Below are positions 11,293 through 20,365 of a stretch of 64,000 nucleotides of DNA, one piece after another (position 1 is the first letter of the stretch; every line of letters starts with the position of its first letter). The position numbers and the translations under genes are program-made. The notes under the pieces were generated by a model, which worked only from the letters and a program-made list of their open reading frames with translations, was not told the DNA's origin and did not search any database. This stretch comes from Streptomyces davaonensis JCM 4913 (GTDB lineage Bacteria > Actinomycetota > Actinomycetes > Streptomycetales > Streptomycetaceae). Location: NCBI RefSeq assembly GCF_000349325.1, contig NC_020504.1, forward strand, positions 9,094,326 to 9,158,325. Direction: 5' to 3'.

Positions 11293-13530
11293 GTGGGGGA
11301 GAGCAGGCTGATCCAGGGCCGGTACCGGCTGCTGGACCTGATCGGGCGCGGCGGCATGGGCGAGGTGTGGCGGGCGCGCGACGAATCGCTCGGCCGGCAG
11401 GTCGCCGTGAAGTGCCTCAAGCCGCTCGGCCCGCATCACGACCAGTCCTTCACCCGGGTCCTCAGAGAGCGGTTCCGGCGCGAGGCCAGGGTCGCCGCCG
11501 CGCTCCAGCATCGCGGCGTCACGGTCGTCCATGACTTCGGCGAGTCGGACGGCGTCCTGTATCTCGTCATGGAGCTGCTGGAGGGCCGCAACCTCAGCCA
11601 GCTGCTGGAGGACAACAAGCACCATCCGCTGCCCGTGCCCGCCGTCGTCGAGATCGCCGACCAGGTCACCGCCGCCCTCGCCTACACCCACCAGCAGGGC
11701 ATCGTGCACCGGGACCTGAAGCCCGCGAACATCGTGCGGCTGACCGACGGCACCGTGAAGATCTGCGACTTCGGCATCGCCCGCCTCGGCGCCGACATCG
11801 GCTTCACCTCCCGGCTGACGGGCACCGGCATCGCCATGGGCACCCCGCACTACATGTCCCCGGAACAGATCGGCGGATCCGAGGTCGACCAGCGCAGCGA
11901 CCTGTACTCGCTGGGCTGTGTGCTCTACGAGATCGCCACCGGCGTACCGCCCTTCGACCTCGACGACGCCTGGGCCGTCCTCGTCGGACACCGGGACACC
12001 CCGCCGCGTCCGCCCCGCGAACACCGCACGGAACTCCCCGAGTTCCTGGAGAAGGTCATCCTGGACCTGCTCGCCAAGCGCCCCGAGGACCGGCCGCACG
12101 ACGCCCGCGAGGTGGGCCGCCGGATCGGCCTCGGCCGCGGCACCCCGACCTATGTCCCGACCGTCCTCACCCCGCGCCCGGAACCACGCCCGCCCGAGCC
12201 GGCCGGCCGCGAGGCCCGGCTGCCGTCCTGGACCCAGGGCATGACCACCGGCCACAAGGCCACCGGCGCCGGGCTGCGCCCCACGCCCCCGGATGCCGGG
12301 GCCGCGCTCACCGGCGAATGGATTCCCCGCCCCGCCGCCGGCCGACCCGCGGAACCGGTGACCCAGGACCCGCCCGCCCCCGACCCGGCGGCGCTCACCG
12401 CGCTGGCCGGCCGGCACAACGCCGGACTCAGCCTCGGACGGCTCGGCCGCTGGGCGGAGGCCGGGGAGGTCCACCGCGCGGTCGCCGCCGAACGCGAGCA
12501 TCTGCTCGGACCCGAGCACCCCGACACCCTCGCCAGCCGCTACGAGGTCGCCTTCACCCTCAGCCGCACCGGCCGCGCGGCCGATGCCCTGCGCGAGTAC
12601 AAGCACGTCGCCCGCGCCAGAAGCCTCGCCCTCGGCCCCGACCACCCGGAAACCCTCGCCGCCCGCCAGGAAATGGCCTACGTGCTGGGCCAGTTGGGCC
12701 GCCACTTCGACGCCCACCAGGTGTACCTCTCGGTACTCGCGGCCCGCGAGCGGGCCATGGGCGCCGAGCACCCCGACACCCTGCGCTGCCGGCACAACCT
12801 GGCCTTCAACCTCAGCAGGCTCGGGCGCCTGGAGGACTCGTACCGCATGGCCTGCGAGGTCGCCGCCGCGCGCGCCCGGGTGCTCGGCCCCGACCACCCG
12901 GAAACCCTCGTCACCCGCTACGAAGTCGCCTACGCGCTCGGTCAGTTGGGCCGCTGGGCGGAGGCCCTGCACACCTACCACGAGGTCGCCGGGGCCCGCG
13001 CCCAGGCGCTCGGCCCCGACCACGCCGACACCCTCGCCGCCCGCTACGAGGTCGGCATCAGCCTGGGGCGCCTCGGTCGCAGCGCGGAGGCGCTCCAGCT
13101 GTACCGCGAGCTGATCGAGGACCGCACCCGGGTGCACGGCCCCACCCACCCCGAGACCCTGCGCGCCCGCCACGGCCTGGGCGTCAACCTGGGCCGCCTC
13201 GGCCGCTGGGAGGAGGCCCTCGCCGAGTCCCGCGACGTCTGCGCGATCCGTGAGCGGGTGCTCGGACCCGAGCATCCGGACACCCTCGTCAGCCGCCGCG
13301 AGGTCGCCGTCGGCCTGGGCTGGCTGGGCCGCTGGCCCGACGCGCTCGCCGAGTACCGCAGGGTGGCCGCCGCCCGCGAACGCGTCCTCGGCCCCGCCCA
13401 CCCCGACACCCTGGCCAGCCGCAACGACGAGGCCCACTGCCTCGAACAACTCGGCCGCGCGGCAGAGGCGGTGGAGCTGTACCGGAGGGTTGCGGCGCTA
13501 CGGCAGCAGGGGACGTCGGGCGGGCGGTGA
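11293..13530 (+). CDS. Serine/threonine protein kinase with C-terminal NphP/TPR_10-type repeats
   Basis: 745 residues. The kinase domain (about 12-275) is complete: glycine loop GRGGMGEVWRARD, VAVK lysine, HRDLKPANIV catalytic loop, DFGIARL and GTPHYMSPEQ. A Pro-rich linker (about 285-365) follows, then about nine 42-residue repeats (about 370-740), each with a GPEHPDTLxxR...LGRLGR core. There is no transmembrane segment, unlike PknB, so it is probably cytosolic and docks partners through the repeats. It is convergent with the CHAT operon (36-bp gap). The GTG at 11293 is the first start in frame; the ribosome-binding site is weak, so the start could shift by a few codons. Confidence 0.93.
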   Translation: MGESRLIQGRYRLLDLIGRGGMGEVWRARDESLGRQVAVKCLKPLGPHHDQSFTRVLRERFRREARVAAALQHRGVTVVHDFGESDGVLYLVMELLEGRNLSQLLEDNKHHPLPVPAVVEIADQVTAALAYTHQQGIVHRDLKPANIVRLTDGTVKICDFGIARLGADIGFTSRLTGTGIAMGTPHYMSPEQIGGSEVDQRSDLYSLGCVLYEIATGVPPFDLDDAWAVLVGHRDTPPRPPREHRTELPEFLEKVILDLLAKRPEDRPHDAREVGRRIGLGRGTPTYVPTVLTPRPEPRPPEPAGREARLPSWTQGMTTGHKATGAGLRPTPPDAGAALTGEWIPRPAAGRPAEPVTQDPPAPDPAALTALAGRHNAGLSLGRLGRWAEAGEVHRAVAAEREHLLGPEHPDTLASRYEVAFTLSRTGRAADALREYKHVARARSLALGPDHPETLAARQEMAYVLGQLGRHFDAHQVYLSVLAARERAMGAEHPDTLRCRHNLAFNLSRLGRLEDSYRMACEVAAARARVLGPDHPETLVTRYEVAYALGQLGRWAEALHTYHEVAGARAQALGPDHADTLAARYEVGISLGRLGRSAEALQLYRELIEDRTRVHGPTHPETLRARHGLGVNLGRLGRWEEALAESRDVCAIRERVLGPEHPDTLVSRREVAVGLGWLGRWPDALAEYRRVAAARERVLGPAHPDTLASRNDEAHCLEQLGRAAEAVELYRRVAALRQQGTSGGR
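12400..13490 (+). repeat. Nine tandem 126-bp repeats coding TPR units in the kinase gene
   Basis: Within the kinase gene a unit of about 126 bp (42 codons) recurs about nine times. Each copy encodes a variant of R-x-E-V-A-x-x-L-G-x-L-G-R-W-A-E-A and ends in LGPxHPDTLA. The repeats are diverged and therefore old. They could promote unequal recombination and copy-number change. Confidence 0.85.
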
Positions 13531-13566
13531 CGGGGGCGGCGGAGTCCGGCCCTCCCGGTCGCGCCC

Positions 13567-14127
13567 TCAGACGGTGCCCGGAGGGTCGGTCGGCCCCTGC
13601 CCCGGCCCGAGGGCGCCCGGGTCGGTGGGCGTCGTGCCGCCGCCCTGGCCGAGGATCCGCTGGTACAGGTCCGCGAGCTGCATCAGCGTCGACCCCTTCG
13701 TGGCCTCCTTGGTCAGCTCGAAACTGACCTTGCCCTTGGAGGTCTTGCGCTCCATCTTCACGCTGACCTTGGTCTGGAGGAAGGCGACCAGCGCGACCAG
13801 CACCACCACCCCGGCCGACACCTCGACGACGGCCAGCTGATCGTCCACGGGCGGCTCGGCCAGCAGCGGCTCCGCCAGCGAACGGGTCCCCGGGTCCTCG
13901 GCCAGCGCGTCCAGGAGCCGCCGACCGGTGTCGAGAGCCAGCCCCTCGTCGTCCAGCAGCCACGCCGCTGACCCCGGGGCGTCGGCGTGCGTGAGCAGCG
14001 CTTCGACGATCTGCAACGCCTCGTCGTCGTTCTCCGCCGCCAGACCGTGCTGGGCGGCGAGATCCTCGGTGATCTCCTGAAGCGCCAGCACCACGGAACG
14101 GCGGGCCATCGGCGGGGACATGGTCAT
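13567..14127 (-). CDS. Small single-pass membrane protein of unknown function, third gene of the CHAT operon
   Basis: 186 residues. I recognise no family. About 1-100 is acidic and helical (ALQEITEDLAAQHGLAAEN). One hydrophobic segment, VVEVSAGVVVLVALVAFL (about 108-126), is followed by a basic, beta-prone stretch (KVSVKMERKTSKGKVSFELT), a short helix and a Gly/Pro-rich tail. The layout (soluble sensor-like part, one membrane helix, charged beta segment) is reminiscent of small constant components that accompany caspase-like and STAND effectors in actinobacterial conflict systems; this is inference. The ATG at 14127 has AAGGAG 5 bp upstream. It lies 40 bp after the CHAT gene and is very likely cotranscribed. 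Confidence 0.7.
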   Translation of the reverse strand: MTMSPPMARRSVVLALQEITEDLAAQHGLAAENDDEALQIVEALLTHADAPGSAAWLLDDEGLALDTGRRLLDALAEDPGTRSLAEPLLAEPPVDDQLAVVEVSAGVVVLVALVAFLQTKVSVKMERKTSKGKVSFELTKEATKGSTLMQLADLYQRILGQGGGTTPTDPGALGPGQGPTDPPGTV

Positions 14128-14167
14128 ACGGACTCCTTGTGACGTCGTACTGCGAGGCGGCCGGGGA

Positions 14168-17100
14168 TCAGCGCCAGTCCCCGGTGAGGGTGAAGGCGCC
14201 CCAGTGGAAGACATGGCCGAGCCAGGGACGGTCCGGGTCCTGGGCGAGTTCGCGCTGCGCCTCCCACAGGGCCCGCCAGGCGGGTGTGCCGCGCCCCAGT
14301 CGCCGGTAGAAGGCGGCGAGCAGCTCGCGTGAACTCTCCTGGTTCACATCCCAGCGCGGGGCGATCACACTGCGGCTGCCCGAGCGCAGGAACGCCCAGG
14401 TCAGCCCGGTGAGATCGGCGCCCGGATGGTCGGCCTCGCCCCAGCCCGCCGAGCAGGCGCGCAGGACCAGCCGCCGCGGCGCGGCGTCCGCGGCCGTCAC
14501 GTCCCGCACCCGCAGCAGATAGCGGGCCTGGGCGGGGACGTTGTGCGGCTCCCAGTTCCGGCTGGGGCGTGAGCGGCCGTCGGAGAACAGCAGCGCCGCC
14601 TCCAACGGGTCGTCGGTGTCGGTGAAGCCATGGCATGTCACATGGGCGAGATCGGCCTCGCCGAGGGCGGTGCGTACCGCGCCCGGGGTCGCGGCGAGCC
14701 CGGCCACCCGGGACACGGCACTCCAGGGACCCTCGCTCAGCAGCGCGTCGTCCTCCTCGAACAGCGCGGTGTCGTCCTCTCGGCCCGCGCAGCCCACGGC
14801 GACCGCTGTGCGGGGCGGGGCGGCGGGATGCGCCAGGAGATAGCGCAGACTGCTCACGCCGGGGACGCTGACCACGGCGTTCGACTCCCCGAGCCGACCG
14901 CCCGACGGGAGGGGGAGCGCGGCGAACGGCACCCCGGTCAGGGGCCCGTGCCCCGAGACGGCCACCAGGCGCCGCTCGGTGAGGAGATCGGCGAAGGGCT
15001 CCAGCAGGGGAGTCAGCTCGGCGAGGAACGAGGTGTCGCGCTTGTCGGGCCGCCGAGCGGGCAGCGGGCGGAGCAGGACACCGGAGTCCGGGTCCCGGCC
15101 GCCGTTGAAGACGGTGCGCAGCCGACGGACGAGGGCCTTGATCCGGTCCCGCCCGAGCGGGACGCGGCGCACACGCAGCGGCTCGCCGTCGGACGTCAGC
15201 ACGAAGCAATAGGTGTGGCGGTTCCCGCAGAAGTAGGAGGCGAGGACCATGCCCTCGGGCGGGGCGTGCCGGGTGAGCAGGGCGCGGACCTCTTCCAGCC
15301 GCGCCGGGGCTCCCGCGCGCAGCCGCGCGTACTGCGGGGCGTGGTCGCCGATCGCGGTGTGCACCGCGGACAACTGGGACGTGAGCCGTTCGGCCTCGTC
15401 CTCGGACGCCGGGCCCAGCGAGCCAAGTGCCGACCGGGTCATCTCGTGCCGCAGCGCCGTCAGCAGCTGGCGCTCCGCGGAGACCAACTGCTCGGGCACC
15501 GCCGGGGGTTCGGGCAGCGGACCGAGAGCCAGGTCGGCCAGCAGATCCCGGGCCTTCACCTCCTCATGGAGGTCGAAGCACCGCTCCGCCACGGACCGCT
15601 CGTCGGGCGAGGGCAGTTCGTCGCCGTGGTCGTGCAGCAGGGTCAGCAACGGCTCGTACTCGTGCAGCGCCTGTCCACCGGCCTCGGCGCGCAGAACGGG
15701 CCACGGGGCCCGCTCGATCCGGCCCAGTGCCGCGTCCCGGCACCACTGGAGGAGCGTGAGGCATTCACCCCGCAGTTCGGGCCGCTCGCCCAGCTTGTCG
15801 ACGAAGGCCATGCGCTCCTTGACGCTGTCGGCGTCCACGCCGTCGACACTGCCTTCGGCGAGCGTGGCGGCGCGCTCGTCGGCCTCGCCGATCAGCCGCC
15901 GGGACAGCTCCGCGGCCTCCGTCCAGCGGTCCAGCCGGACCAGGCAGGTCATCAGGGCCCGTCCGGTCACGAACTCGCCCACGGAGGTGCCCCGTTCGCG
16001 GGCCTCGGCGTGGAGTTCGGTGAGCCGGGGGAGCAGTTCCCGCGCCGTCGCGGGGCGCTCGTCGCGTTCGATGCGGCGATTGAGCGCGTTGGCCAGGATC
16101 ACGGCGCCGTCGATCGTACGGCGGAACTCCAGGGACGTCCGATTGCTCTCCTCGTACCAGGCCAGGGCCCGGTCGTCGTCGCCGCGCTCCTCGGCGATCT
16201 CCCCGAGCCCGGCCAGACACGCGACCTCGTTCACACTCCGGGTGCTCGCGTCCTGACGCATCTCCGCCAGCGCCGCGCGGTACTCCTCCTCCGCCTCGTC
16301 CAGATACCCCATGCGGCACAGGTGCTGCGCCAGCGCGCCGCGGAACGTGTGGGACATCAGGATCCCGCCGCGCAGCGCCGTGGCCAGGTTCTCCTGGAAG
16401 ACGCGCAGCGCCTCCCTGCTGCGGCCCCTGCTCTGGAGCGAGTTCGCCCACAGCGCCCGCGCCCGCAGCACCATCGGGATGTCGTGCACCGCCTCGGCGG
16501 TCTCGACGGCCTGCCGGAAGTCCGCCGACGCGGCTTCCAGGGTGCCGTGATGCAGATGGGTCTTCCCGCGTTCGACCAGCAGATCGAGGTACAGCGGATG
16601 GGGGCGGTCGAGAGCGAGGTCACCGGAGATGTCGCGGGCGCTCTCCAGGGCCCGGTCGAAGTGGTGCAGAGCGCCGCGGTGCAGGCCCTGCGCGGACATC
16701 TCGATCGCCACGATCCGGTCGAACTCCAGCCAGCGCTGCCGGTCGTCGTCCAGATGCCGCAACTCGCGCTGACAGTCCAGCAGGACCTTCAGACCCTGCC
16801 GGAGGTCGCCCAGACTGCGGTGTGCCTGCGCCAGCATCGAGTACGCCCAGTAGGTGACCTCCGGGTTCTCCGCGATACGTCCGCTGCCGTGCAGCGCGAC
16901 GACGGCCCGGCCGGCGTGGAAGCGCGCGTGCCGCCGGTCACGCATCCGGTCCAGGTCGGCCATTCCGGCCCGCTCCGCACGGCGGGCGCGCTCCATCAGG
17001 CCGTACGCCCACCAGGTGCGGGCCCGCACCACGGCCAGCGGCGAGTCCGGGGCGGCCATGGCGACCGCCGCCAGCACGGCCGAGCGCTGGTAGTCGTGCA

Positions 17101-17485
17101 GGCCCTTGTAGTGGCCGAGGAGGTGCTGGGCGACCGGCACCGGATCGTCGGGCAGCGCGCCCGGCTGGGCACGGAAGACGAGGAAGGCCTCCATCAGGTT
17201 GAGCCGGGCCGCGCGGTCCAGCAGCGCCGCGAAATCGGGGTGGCCCCGGTCGTTCACCTTGAGCTGCCAGCGCTCGCGGGCCTGTCCGGCCAGGAACTCC
17301 AGCAGCTCGGCCTCGGCCGCCCGTCCCGCGCCGACCGCTGCGGCGGCCTGCGTCCGCAGCGAGGTCAGCACGAGCGGCCGTACGGACTCGGACAGCCGGT
17401 CCAGGTTGCCGACCATGGTGTCGTAGTCCGTCGAGCGGATCACGAGGAAGTCCACCAGCGACTCCCCGGCGCCGGGGCTGGTCAT
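14168..17485 (-). CDS. CHAT-domain protein with TPR-like helical repeats (caspase-like protease candidate)
   Basis: 1105 residues. About 1-700 is alpha-helical with TPR-like units (for example ACLAGLGEIAEERGDDDRAL and CRMGYLDEAEEEYRAALAEM). The C-terminal CHAT domain spans about 770-1105. The caspase-type dyad is intact: His952 in HVTCHGF and Cys1011 in VLRACSAGWG, so catalysis is expected. CHAT proteases are related to separase and gasdermin- or Craspase-activating enzymes and act in cell death or defence. Its start overlaps the stop of the upstream helical gene in an ATGA, and a small membrane protein follows. Substrate unknown; no gasdermin-like gene is visible nearby. Confidence 0.92.
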   Translation of the reverse strand: MTSPGAGESLVDFLVIRSTDYDTMVGNLDRLSESVRPLVLTSLRTQAAAAVGAGRAAEAELLEFLAGQARERWQLKVNDRGHPDFAALLDRAARLNLMEAFLVFRAQPGALPDDPVPVAQHLLGHYKGLHDYQRSAVLAAVAMAAPDSPLAVVRARTWWAYGLMERARRAERAGMADLDRMRDRRHARFHAGRAVVALHGSGRIAENPEVTYWAYSMLAQAHRSLGDLRQGLKVLLDCQRELRHLDDDRQRWLEFDRIVAIEMSAQGLHRGALHHFDRALESARDISGDLALDRPHPLYLDLLVERGKTHLHHGTLEAASADFRQAVETAEAVHDIPMVLRARALWANSLQSRGRSREALRVFQENLATALRGGILMSHTFRGALAQHLCRMGYLDEAEEEYRAALAEMRQDASTRSVNEVACLAGLGEIAEERGDDDRALAWYEESNRTSLEFRRTIDGAVILANALNRRIERDERPATARELLPRLTELHAEARERGTSVGEFVTGRALMTCLVRLDRWTEAAELSRRLIGEADERAATLAEGSVDGVDADSVKERMAFVDKLGERPELRGECLTLLQWCRDAALGRIERAPWPVLRAEAGGQALHEYEPLLTLLHDHGDELPSPDERSVAERCFDLHEEVKARDLLADLALGPLPEPPAVPEQLVSAERQLLTALRHEMTRSALGSLGPASEDEAERLTSQLSAVHTAIGDHAPQYARLRAGAPARLEEVRALLTRHAPPEGMVLASYFCGNRHTYCFVLTSDGEPLRVRRVPLGRDRIKALVRRLRTVFNGGRDPDSGVLLRPLPARRPDKRDTSFLAELTPLLEPFADLLTERRLVAVSGHGPLTGVPFAALPLPSGGRLGESNAVVSVPGVSSLRYLLAHPAAPPRTAVAVGCAGREDDTALFEEDDALLSEGPWSAVSRVAGLAATPGAVRTALGEADLAHVTCHGFTDTDDPLEAALLFSDGRSRPSRNWEPHNVPAQARYLLRVRDVTAADAAPRRLVLRACSAGWGEADHPGADLTGLTWAFLRSGSRSVIAPRWDVNQESSRELLAAFYRRLGRGTPAWRALWEAQRELAQDPDRPWLGHVFHWGAFTLTGDWR

Positions 17486-18600
17486 CCCGCCTCCTTGCGC
17501 GCGCGTGCGGAGGGGGCGACCGTCAGCCCCAGGGCGGCGAGTCCCGCGCAGTCGCGGTCGCCGAGCGGGCCGTCCGTGAAGTCCAGTGCCTGTTGGGCCT
17601 TTGTGTGCTCGCCCTTGCCCAGATGGATCAGGGCCGCGGCCACGGCGCAGTGCGGCTGATCGGGGTGGGCGCGCGCCATGAGGAACAGCCGGTCGAGGAA
17701 GGGCCGGGCCTGGTCCGGGTCCTTGGCCGCCTCGGCCAGGAACCCGAGGATGCCCGCGGTGTGCTGCGTTTCCAGATTGCGCAGCACTCGGCTGCCGTCG
17801 TCGGCGTCCGCGCCCTCGCGCAGCACCGCCGAGTGCGGGCGGACCCGGTGGAGTTTGCGGCGCGACCGCTCCCGCAGCTCCCGGTCGCGGGTACCCGCCC
17901 GCAGATGCATGCCGACCAGCAGCTCCAGAGCGACGTCGCCGACCTCCTCGTCCTCACCGAGAGGCACCAGCACGTCCTCTGCCGCGTCGAAGTCGGCGAT
18001 CGAGTGGTCCAGGTCCCCGAGTGCGAGCAAGGACTTGGCGTGCTCCAGCCGGTGCAGGGAGCCCGCCTCGCCCCGCTCGGACAGTTCCGCGAAGTAGGCG
18101 GACCGTAATCGGTGCAGCGAGCGCTCCGGGTTCCGCTTGTTGAGGGCGGTGGTCAGCTCCTCGCCCCGCTGCATCAGCTCCACCCACTCCCCGTCCGGGC
18201 CCTGGAGGCACTTGGACGCCTCCAGAAGCTGGTTCACGGCGAGGTCCCCCAGGCCGCAGCGGGCGGAGGCGGTGGCGAGGTCGGCCCGCAGCGCGCGCAC
18301 CGTCGGGTCGTCGTCGGCGCCCTCCGGCAACAGGCCCTGGCTCTTGCCGCCCGCCGCCTCGGACGCCGCGTACTCAGCCTCTCTGAGCTCCTTCCACGCC
18401 GCGAACGGCAACCCCGCGGCGAGCAGTGCCACGCCGTACAGATGCCGTTGCTCGGGTCCGGCCTCGGCCCGCCGCTCGGCCCCGCGCACCGCACGCCACG
18501 CCTCGTGCCGGTTCCGGGTGATCCACTGCGCCACGGCCGCGCTCTCCGGAAACGCCCGCGCGGAGAACGGCACACGCCACGCCGACGACGGATCCTGCAT
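17482..18600 (-). CDS. Alpha-helical (TPR-like) protein, first gene of the CHAT operon
   Basis: 372 residues, rich in Ala/Leu/Glu and predicted nearly all helical. Units such as GVALLAAGLPFAAWKELREAE, HAKSLLALGDLDHSIADFD and AAALIHLGKGEHTKAQQALD look like degenerate TPRs. I do not recognise a named family and see no catalytic motif, signal peptide or membrane segment. The stop overlaps the CHAT gene start by 4 bp, so the products are made together and may interact, perhaps as sensor or inhibitor of the protease. The start ATG at 18600 is preceded by AAGGGGG. The upstream region carries three 20-21 bp direct repeats. Confidence 0.8.
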   Translation of the reverse strand: MQDPSSAWRVPFSARAFPESAAVAQWITRNRHEAWRAVRGAERRAEAGPEQRHLYGVALLAAGLPFAAWKELREAEYAASEAAGGKSQGLLPEGADDDPTVRALRADLATASARCGLGDLAVNQLLEASKCLQGPDGEWVELMQRGEELTTALNKRNPERSLHRLRSAYFAELSERGEAGSLHRLEHAKSLLALGDLDHSIADFDAAEDVLVPLGEDEEVGDVALELLVGMHLRAGTRDRELRERSRRKLHRVRPHSAVLREGADADDGSRVLRNLETQHTAGILGFLAEAAKDPDQARPFLDRLFLMARAHPDQPHCAVAAALIHLGKGEHTKAQQALDFTDGPLGDRDCAGLAALGLTVAPSARARKEAG

Positions 18601-18693
18601 GCGCGCCCCCTTGCGCCCGGTGACCGAGTGGCCTCAGAAGCAAGAACGGCATCCGAAGGGCCGTCGGTTCCCGGTTCCGGCAGACGACTGGAT

Positions 18694-18753
18694 CTGATCG
18701 ACAGCAGTCGGACCTGATCAATTCGCAGCCGAACCTGATCGCTCCGCAGCCCT
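18694..18753. repeat. Three tandem 20-21 bp repeats (CTGATC-N5/6-GCAG) in a divergent promoter region
   Basis: CTGATC starts at 18694, 18714 and 18735, each followed 5-6 bases later by GCAG and a variable tail. The spacing of 20 and 21 bp places the copies on one face of the helix, as expected for cooperative binding of a regulator. The region lies between the CHAT operon (start 18600) and the oxidoreductase gene, just ahead of a TAGATC -10-like element at 18762. Confidence 0.5.
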
Positions 18754-18787
18754 GGCCGACCTAGATCATCCCGTGTTACGAAGAACC

Positions 18788-20365
18788 ATGCCTGCACACG
18801 AGGGACACCCGGGACATCGCGCCTACGACGCCGTCATCGTCGGCGGCGGCCACAACGGCCTGGTCGCCGCCGCCTATCTGGCCCGGGCCGGCCGCTCCGT
18901 ACTGGTGCTGGAGCGCCTGGACCACACCGGCGGCGCCGCCGTCTCCACCCGCCCCTTCGCGGGCATCGACGCCCGGCTGTCCCGCTACTCCTACCTGGTC
19001 AGCCTGCTGCCCAAGAAGATCGTGCGGGACCTGGGCCTCACCTTCCGCGTCCGCGCCCGCACCGTCTCCTCGTACACCCCCGTGGAGCGGGCCGGACAGG
19101 CCACCGGACTGCTGGTGGGCGGCGGCGAGCGGCGCACCCGGGAGGCGTTCGCGAGACTCACCGGCGGCGAACGCGAGTACGCGGCCTGGCAGCGGTTCTA
19201 CGGCCTGACCGGCGAGGTCGCGAAGCGGGTCTTCCCCACGCTCACCGAACCGCTGCCCAGCCGCGAGGAACTGCGCCGCCGTATCGACGACGAGGAGGCC
19301 TGGCGGCTGCTGTTCGAGGAGCCGATCGGCGTCGCCGTCGAGGACCGCTTCGCGGACGACCTGGTGCGCGGCGTCGTCCTCACCGACGCCCTCATCGGCA
19401 CCTTCGCCGACGCCCACGACGCCTCCCTGAAGCAGAACCGCTGCTTCCTCTACCACGTCATCGGCGGCGGCACCGGAGACTGGGACGTGCCCGTCGGCGG
19501 CATGGGCGCCCTCACCGACGCCCTCGCGGCGGCGGCCCGCACGGCCGGGGCCGACATCGCCACCGGCCACGAGGCCGTACGCATCCAAACCGACGGCACG
19601 ACCGCCGAGGTCACCTACCGCACCGCCGACGGCGAGGGCGTCGCCGCCGCCCGCCACGTCCTGGTCAACGCCTCCCCGCAGGAACTGGCCGCACTGACCG
19701 GCGGCACCGCGCCGGAGCCCGCCGAGGGCGCCCAGCTCAAGGTGAACATGCTGCTCAAGCGGCTGCCGAGGCTCAAGGACGCCTCGGTCGACCCCCGTGA
19801 GGCGTTCTCCGGGACCTTCCACATCGCCGAGGGCTACCAACAGCTCGCCACGGCCCACGCCCAGGCCGCCGCCGGTGAACTGCCTGCCGCCCCGCCCTCG
19901 GAGATCTACTGTCACTCCCTCACCGACCCGACGATCCTCGGCCCGGACCTCGTCGAGCGTGGCTACCAGACCCTCACCCTCTTCGGGCTGCACACCCCCG
20001 CCCGGCTCTTCGAACGGGACAACGACGCCGTACGCGAGGAACTCCTGAAGTCGACGCTCGCGCAGCTCGACGCCCACCTGGCCGAACCGCTCGCCGACGT
20101 TCTCGCGACCGACGCCGAGGGACGGCCCTGCATCGAGGCGAAGTCCCCACTGGACCTGGAGCGCGACCTGCGGCTGCCCGGCGGCAACATCTTCCACCGC
20201 GAGCTGTCCTGGCCCCATGCCCAGACCGGCACCGGCCGCTGGGGCGTGGAGACGGAACACCCGAACGTCCTGCTGTGCGGCGCGGGCGCGGTGCGCGGCG
20301 GGGGAGTGAGCGGCGTGCCCGGACACAACGCGGCGATGGCCGTGCTGGAACGGGGCGACAGCTGA
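18788..20365 (+). CDS. FAD-dependent phytoene desaturase-like/PYROXD2-like oxidoreductase
   Basis: 525 residues. The N-terminal FAD-binding Rossmann motif is clear (YDAVIVGGGHNGLVAAAYLARAG followed by VLVLERLDHTGGAA), and the C terminus has the second flavin motif LLCGAGAVRGGGVSGVPGHNAA. The family covers carotenoid desaturases and PYROXD2-like proteins; there are no carotenoid genes nearby, so a carotenoid role is doubtful. The ATG at 18788 has only a weak AAGA site. A GTG at 18773, 5 bases after TAGATC, would give a leaderless 530-residue form. Convergent with the SDR gene, with a 4-bp gap. Confidence 0.88.
   Translation: MPAHEGHPGHRAYDAVIVGGGHNGLVAAAYLARAGRSVLVLERLDHTGGAAVSTRPFAGIDARLSRYSYLVSLLPKKIVRDLGLTFRVRARTVSSYTPVERAGQATGLLVGGGERRTREAFARLTGGEREYAAWQRFYGLTGEVAKRVFPTLTEPLPSREELRRRIDDEEAWRLLFEEPIGVAVEDRFADDLVRGVVLTDALIGTFADAHDASLKQNRCFLYHVIGGGTGDWDVPVGGMGALTDALAAAARTAGADIATGHEAVRIQTDGTTAEVTYRTADGEGVAAARHVLVNASPQELAALTGGTAPEPAEGAQLKVNMLLKRLPRLKDASVDPREAFSGTFHIAEGYQQLATAHAQAAAGELPAAPPSEIYCHSLTDPTILGPDLVERGYQTLTLFGLHTPARLFERDNDAVREELLKSTLAQLDAHLAEPLADVLATDAEGRPCIEAKSPLDLERDLRLPGGNIFHRELSWPHAQTGTGRWGVETEHPNVLLCGAGAVRGGGVSGVPGHNAAMAVLERGDS

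Follow-up and report, generated by a model that had tools for sequence, protein, structure and literature searches.

What kind of system is encoded by the three adjacent minus-strand genes at positions 13,567 to 18,600 of a 64,000-nucleotide stretch of the Streptomyces davaonensis JCM 4913 genome (NC_020504.1, positions 9,094,326 to 9,158,325; the whole stretch is called the window here)? The genes, numbered 1 to 3 in the order in which they are read and together called the trio, encode a TPR-like protein, a predicted TPR-CHAT protease and a small predicted membrane protein. We consider the trio to be an accessory conflict cassette, probably acting through cell suicide or dormancy, on the plan of the EACC1 systems, in which a 5' gene for a protein with one membrane helix stands beside a 3' caspase gene (Kaur et al., 2020, PMC7159879). 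A TPR-CHAT protein would replace the caspase, and a TPR protein would be added. We give this reading a probability of roughly 0.6. Computed support comes from the operon, co-inheritance, an intact catalytic dyad, a divergent EACC1 match, and presence or absence of the genes as a unit. The features are as follows.

17482..18600, minus strand: gene 1, TPR-like protein of 372 residues that partners the CHAT protein (open reading frame; TPR sub-threshold here, clear in the family)
14168..17485, minus strand: gene 2, predicted 1105-residue TPR-CHAT protease (Pfam TPR_12 and CHAT PF12770)
14177..14980, minus strand: CHAT domain, residues 836-1103 (Pfam, E = 1.8e-31)
14630..14632, minus strand: predicted catalytic His952
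14453..14455, minus strand: predicted catalytic Cys1011
13567..14127, minus strand: gene 3, predicted 186-residue small membrane protein with N-terminal helical region (helical character judged from the sequence) and C-terminal EACC1-like module (open reading frame, start chosen by relatives)
13657..13929, minus strand: EACC1-like module, about residues 67-157 (hhalign; PF19953 sub-threshold in relatives, none in the window protein)
13777..13833, minus strand: hydrophobic helix, about residues 99-117 (hydropathy)
13690..13776, minus strand: basic segment that follows the helix, residues 118-146 approximately, probable beta hairpin (alignments and net charge; beta from pattern only)

Gene starts were assigned by rule. 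The open reading frame called for gene 3 (13567-14214, 215 residues) begins within gene 2, and an ATG at position 14127 yields 186 residues; the shorter form was adopted because full-length relatives in the alignment begin near this internal ATG. There is a 4-bp overlap of genes 1 and 2 and a 40-bp gap between genes 2 and 3, and the three genes form a single operon, as the initial annotation of this locus had described, down to the overlap and the gap.

Is the trio a genuine unit? A search with the single gene 3 sequence matched 2 of 121 genomes of the genus, the same two as for gene 1. Profile searches found gene 3 at 10 places in 9 of 392 genus genomes and gene 1 in 6 of 392; one of the gene 1 matches was weak (genome G050, E 9e-4), had no CHAT match in the 12 kb around it, and was left out of the trio count. 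Class-wide, gene 3 was present in 2 of 394 genomes. Among 84,980 species, each represented by one genome, a pattern-based scan, which gives a lower bound, detected gene 3 at at least 16 loci in Streptomyces, Actinacidiphila, Saccharopolyspora, Actinomadura and Nocardia. The recurrence of the trio across actinomycete genera is more than chance.

For the analysis of gene neighborhoods, 23 loci were pooled, namely the 10 places in the genus, 12 further loci from the species scan and one from the class scan (L087), none of them picked by context. Repeats were counted once (L076 equals L037, L077 equals L035, L079 equals L017, and L084 equals L040), and L075 and L078 were both counted though they are 96% identical in CHAT. 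CHAT neighbors were identified by search with the window's own CHAT domain. A CHAT gene was found beside gene 3 in 22 of the 23 loci, immediately upstream in 21 and past gene 1 in L073. At the exceptional locus (L071, 2120-3417, Actinacidiphila soli), gene 3 is truncated on its N-terminal side; it adjoins open reading frames that, by eye, resemble pieces of a transposase.

Next to the CHAT gene, a gene 1 homologue was present in 21 of 22 loci, as counted by a hidden Markov model iterated on the same loci (11 loci with the original profile at iteration 0, 21 in later rounds). None was found in L037, where the CHAT frame is short, and in L075 and L078 gene 1 is represented by a 147-residue frame only. 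Gene 3 comes last at all loci except L073, where the order is gene 3, gene 1, CHAT. Of the 20 loci with a script-proposed start, 10 allow gene 3 to start 4 bp before CHAT ends (L036, L037, L038, L039, L072, L074, L080, L082, L083 and L087, the last being less sure because of a GTG start and a doubtful motif). The other gaps between CHAT and gene 3 measure 1-43 bp in eight loci and 199 bp in one, and the genes are not adjacent in L073.

Pairwise distances of the three proteins correlate across 19 loci (r 0.867, 0.850 and 0.930; none of 2000 permutations was as high), a result consistent with joint inheritance and no independent proof that the proteins interact. We conclude that the trio is inherited as a real unit. 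The search across genomes that the initial annotation had proposed thus finds the three genes recurring together, and independent occurrence, which it had named as contrary evidence, was not encountered in these data. The trio is also a rare accessory cassette, which argues against a housekeeping role. One pattern-based scan of viral contigs revealed no gene 3 relative. A 1.56-Mb Streptomyces plasmid carries a decayed trio remnant, in which the CHAT end and a gene 3 with a broken frame survive (L136:7539-8301). Phage-borne cargo was considered and found unsupported, given no relative in viral contigs and one remnant among plasmids.

Gene 2 is assigned to the CHAT peptidases (PF12770) by its domain, which scores 110.1 bits against a Pfam cut-off of 24, and by its His-Cys dyad; the TPR match (TPR_12) lies in the N-terminal part of the protein. 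The initial annotation had reported His952 and Cys1011 as intact. Both are present in the window protein and conserved without exception across the 22 trio CHAT proteins, even though the lowest pairwise CHAT identity among the trio loci is 28%.

Gene 1 encodes a TPR protein. TPR is sub-threshold in the window protein itself, TPR_19 matches 10 of 14 members of the family, and the best E-value over any TPR model is 2.5e-11. The earlier assignment to a TPR type therefore holds for the family, and the accompanying remark that no described family was recognized for gene 1 no longer applies. An unknown fold was also considered for gene 1 and was rejected, as family members are clearly TPR.

The affinity of gene 3 is less direct. 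EACC1 (PF19953) is the commonest Pfam model among gene 3 relatives, counted at E-values up to 5. It matches 9 of 17 members of one set of relatives (A3, best E 0.002) and 21 of 28 members of another (A4, best E 3.5e-4), the two sets overlapping in membership. The 16 EACC1 matches with positions shown cover about one stretch, residues 62-156 approximately, against profile positions 2-105. In hhalign comparisons of the gene 3 family with 17 EACC1 proteins, full-length alignments reached probabilities of 86.5 and 84.3. With set A4, the probability was 83.4 and the score 37.6, compared to 11.1 and 9.9 for reversed profiles and to maxima of 31.4 in 150 block shuffles (mean 17.1) and 16.2 in 150 column shuffles. 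Contrary to the initial annotation, which recognized no described family, the second half of gene 3 is thus probably a divergent, sub-threshold EACC1 relative. This match brings the trio close to the EACC1 conflict systems that Kaur et al. (2020) described.

Several results weigh against the assignment to an EACC1-like conflict cassette. The EACC1 matches shown all lie below the Pfam cut-off (best 21.0 versus 23.6 bits), a hidden Markov model built from the 17 EACC1 proteins matches just 1 of 28 gene 3 relatives, and hhalign on the C-terminal halves alone gave a probability of 66.4. Bbp19 (a Bbp19-like phage protein, PF25181, with matches that cover about residues 40-97 of the gene 3 relatives where shown) matches 10 of 28 relatives, also sub-threshold, with a best E of 1.4e-4. 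At E up to 1, the gene 3 window protein has no match in Pfam, NCBIfam or PADLOC. At the same threshold, PADLOC is also without a match for gene 1, and for gene 2 it gives one TPR match only (E 0.013). No known defense gene was recognized among 10 flanking genes scanned from six other loci, one of which encodes a phage integrase.

The low EACC1 scores, the similarly strong Bbp19 match and the weak performance of our own EACC1 model are what one would expect if the likeness had arisen by chance between short membrane proteins and the trio were an unrelated CHAT system. Such an explanation has to account for the prominence of EACC1 in both overlapping sets, for the common stretch covered by the matches, and for an hhalign score above that of all reversed and shuffled controls, and we consider it doubtful.

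How might gene 3 act? In the window protein, one hydrophobic region spans roughly residues 94-126 (the best 19-residue window, 99-117, has a Kyte-Doolittle mean of 2.65). A single such region was found, by hydropathy only, in 10 of 10 gene 3 proteins examined, matching the single membrane helix of EACC1. The segment beyond it is basic and likely forms a beta hairpin. Of the one membrane helix and charged beta segment anticipated by the initial annotation, helix and charge are recovered, and the beta character is a reading of the residue pattern. Net charge is -9 to -17 on the N side and +1 to +5 in the segment past the helix in 19 of 19 loci, and the most conserved segment, PPxD, with P92, P93 and D95 invariant, lies immediately ahead of the helix. 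An EAD domain was considered for the N-terminus, and EAD models are absent from the hits of the 28 members.

According to the positive-inside rule, the basic end of a membrane span stays inside, so a constitutive gene 3 span would have its basic end inside and about 100 acidic residues outside. This would be unusual for a constitutive span, and the helix may therefore insert only on activation. Conditional insertion, the charge split, the position of PPxD and the linkage to the protease retained across loci would all suit gene 3 as an effector. CHAT would then cut between the acidic helical N region and the hydrophobic helix, and the fragment with helix and basic hairpin would damage the membrane in a gasdermin-like manner, though unrelated to gasdermin. 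PPxD lies within the EACC1-aligned stretch, however, and may serve the fold rather than mark a cleavage site, and Kaur et al. (2020) propose that EACC1 is a membrane sensor that activates the caspase and not an effector. We regard the effector role as unlikely.

The layout of sensor, protease and membrane effector suggested by the initial annotation, which had compared it to programmed-death modules, may apply. That annotation had recognized no gasdermin, and neither the gene 3 window protein nor its 28 relatives have a Pfam gasdermin match. A gasdermin-free death module, in which TPR-CHAT would cut the EACC1-like protein and the freed basic, helix-bearing fragment would permeabilize the membrane, seems improbable to us. 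If true, this would be a bacterial membrane killer of a new, protease-activated class.

The insertion site bears on whether the trio serves conflict or ordinary physiology. It involves the following features.

13531..18772, no strand assigned: cassette stretch missing at the same site in related genomes, between kinase-TPR and FAD oxidoreductase genes (empty-site comparison)
11293-13530: kinase-TPR gene, flank
18773-20365: FAD oxidoreductase gene, flank

The two flanking genes adjoin in many genomes without the trio. We searched 61 genomes for the oxidoreductase and compared the flanks of 16 high-identity Streptomyces ones, with G024 omitted because of a contig edge. The trio was detected in none of the 16 comparison stretches (tblastn, E 1e-10). 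Taking distances from the end of one best tblastn match to that of the other, we found no more than about 630 bp between the flanking genes in 10 of the 16 (L120-L125, L129 and L132-L134), about 1.2 kb in L128, and 7.7 kb in L126, where the space is filled with other genes; the kinase gene was not found in the flank stretches of L127, L130, L131 and L135. In the window, L033, L034 and L070, this gap holds the trio. It is a clean insertion, present or absent as a whole at one site. The kinase-TPR gene, a Ser/Thr kinase fused to eight TPR_10-type repeats, was rejected as a member of the system because it stays by the oxidoreductase gene in trio-less genomes.

In L126 (915-8418), from another Streptomyces, the slot is occupied by four genes, encoding an EAD8-trypsin protein, an FGE-sulfatase with a sub-threshold NACHT match, an AAA protein, and a 723-residue protein without Pfam match. 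EAD domains are part of the conflict network (Kaur et al., 2020, PMC7159879; Kaur et al., 2021, PMC8195603), and the cargo looks like another conflict system. This single case is suggestive of a hot spot for conflict systems, not proof. In the neighborhoods of other trio loci, Nocardia arizonensis has a phage integrase gene at a distance of about 0.9 kb (L082:9422-10525), and a Type 2A encapsulin shell protein with a cNMP-binding domain is encoded near the trio in Streptomyces sp. CB01373 (L083:1503-3059).

Streptomyces development uses regulated proteolysis. The TPR-CHAT protein might accordingly cut a membrane-anchored regulator in normal development or envelope stress, outside any defense role, and the immediate neighbors in the window, ordinary enzymes and a kinase, would be in keeping with this. 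The rarity and patchiness of gene 3 in the genus and class surveys, the presence or absence of the whole cassette at one site, and the decayed plasmid remnant make such a function improbable.

We favor a protease that would be held at the membrane, be regulated through TPR and cut a target, and place cleavage of gene 3 into a killer second. Regarding membrane location, complex formation, trigger, protease activity, target and outcome, we infer that the EACC1-like gene 3 protein would place the complex at the membrane and help to sense or hold it off, with the 372-residue TPR protein acting as scaffold, sensor or inhibitor. A trigger, for example phage infection or membrane disturbance, would release the TPR-CHAT protease, which would then cleave one or more targets, so that the infected hyphal compartment stops growing. 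The trio would link CHAT proteases to the EACC1 conflict network. EACC1 systems are themselves predictions from sequence, and both Kaur et al. (2020) and Kaur et al. (2021) appear to be computational. With its compact form, one protease, fixed partner and clean empty sites, the trio offers a practical model for asking if EACC1-type proteins serve as sensors, as anchors or as killers activated by a protease.

How does the trio compare with known systems? No description of a CHAT-EACC1 trio was found among the open-access titles and starts of abstracts listed, with supplements and most subscription papers outside this scope, and an open-access literature search for CHAT in Streptomyces defense found nothing. 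Bacterial gasdermin modules encode a caspase-like protease beside a membrane-acting protein. The trio shares this arrangement with its membrane-acting candidate, and differs in that gene 3 lacks a Pfam gasdermin match and has a single hydrophobic region. TPR-CHAT/Csx29 of the type III-E Craspase also combines TPR with a CHAT protease in one protein, whereas single-sequence PDB searches matched TPR-type structures only for the whole gene 2 protein and gave nothing better than E 0.34 for its CHAT part; cas genes were not searched for. The EACC2 and TRADD-N caspase systems (Kaur et al., 2021, PMC8195603) follow a similar plan of constant component plus caspase, although neither name occurs among the Pfam hits of the trio, where the presence of such models in Pfam was not checked.

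The closest comparison is with EACC1 itself. All four canonical EACC1 genes of the same genome, examined in full, have a Peptidase_C14 neighbor (L042, L043, L044 and L045). In L045 the caspase gene is upstream of EACC1, not 3', and is a fusion with EAD2 and VMAP-M0. In all, CHAT occurs at eight places in this genome. Of 21 further EACC1 loci, 10 were considered with one neighboring open reading frame each, and 8 of these encode Peptidase_C14; the neighbor in L061 shows nSTAND1, and that in L054 is without match, perhaps in a wrong frame. Overall, Peptidase_C14 accompanies 12 of 14 canonical EACC1 genes and CHAT, by Pfam, none, with 10 of the neighbors seen only to about 500-600 residues (1.5-kb flanks), so that CHAT farther on would escape. 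Under the same flank limit, a hidden Markov model of the 22 trio CHATs had no match in 25 EACC1 loci. The word "CHAT" is absent from the main text of Kaur et al. (2020).

Like the two-gene EACC1 system, the trio pairs a small protein, whose single predicted membrane helix is flanked by short extensions, with a caspase-superfamily protease in multicellular actinobacteria. The protease domain of the trio is a CHAT at the C-terminus of a TPR protein, whereas EACC1 systems use an N-terminal caspase followed by a variable domain. In the trio, moreover, a TPR gene is added, and gene 3 comes last (first in L073 only) and has an extra N-terminal region. The trio lacks two marks of a canonical EACC1 system, a domain above the Pfam cut-off and a neighbor (3' in the paper) with an N-terminal caspase or cyclase. 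Because protease type and placement, gene order, the added TPR gene and the added N-terminal region all differ, we class the trio as a variant of the EACC1 kind and not as a member.

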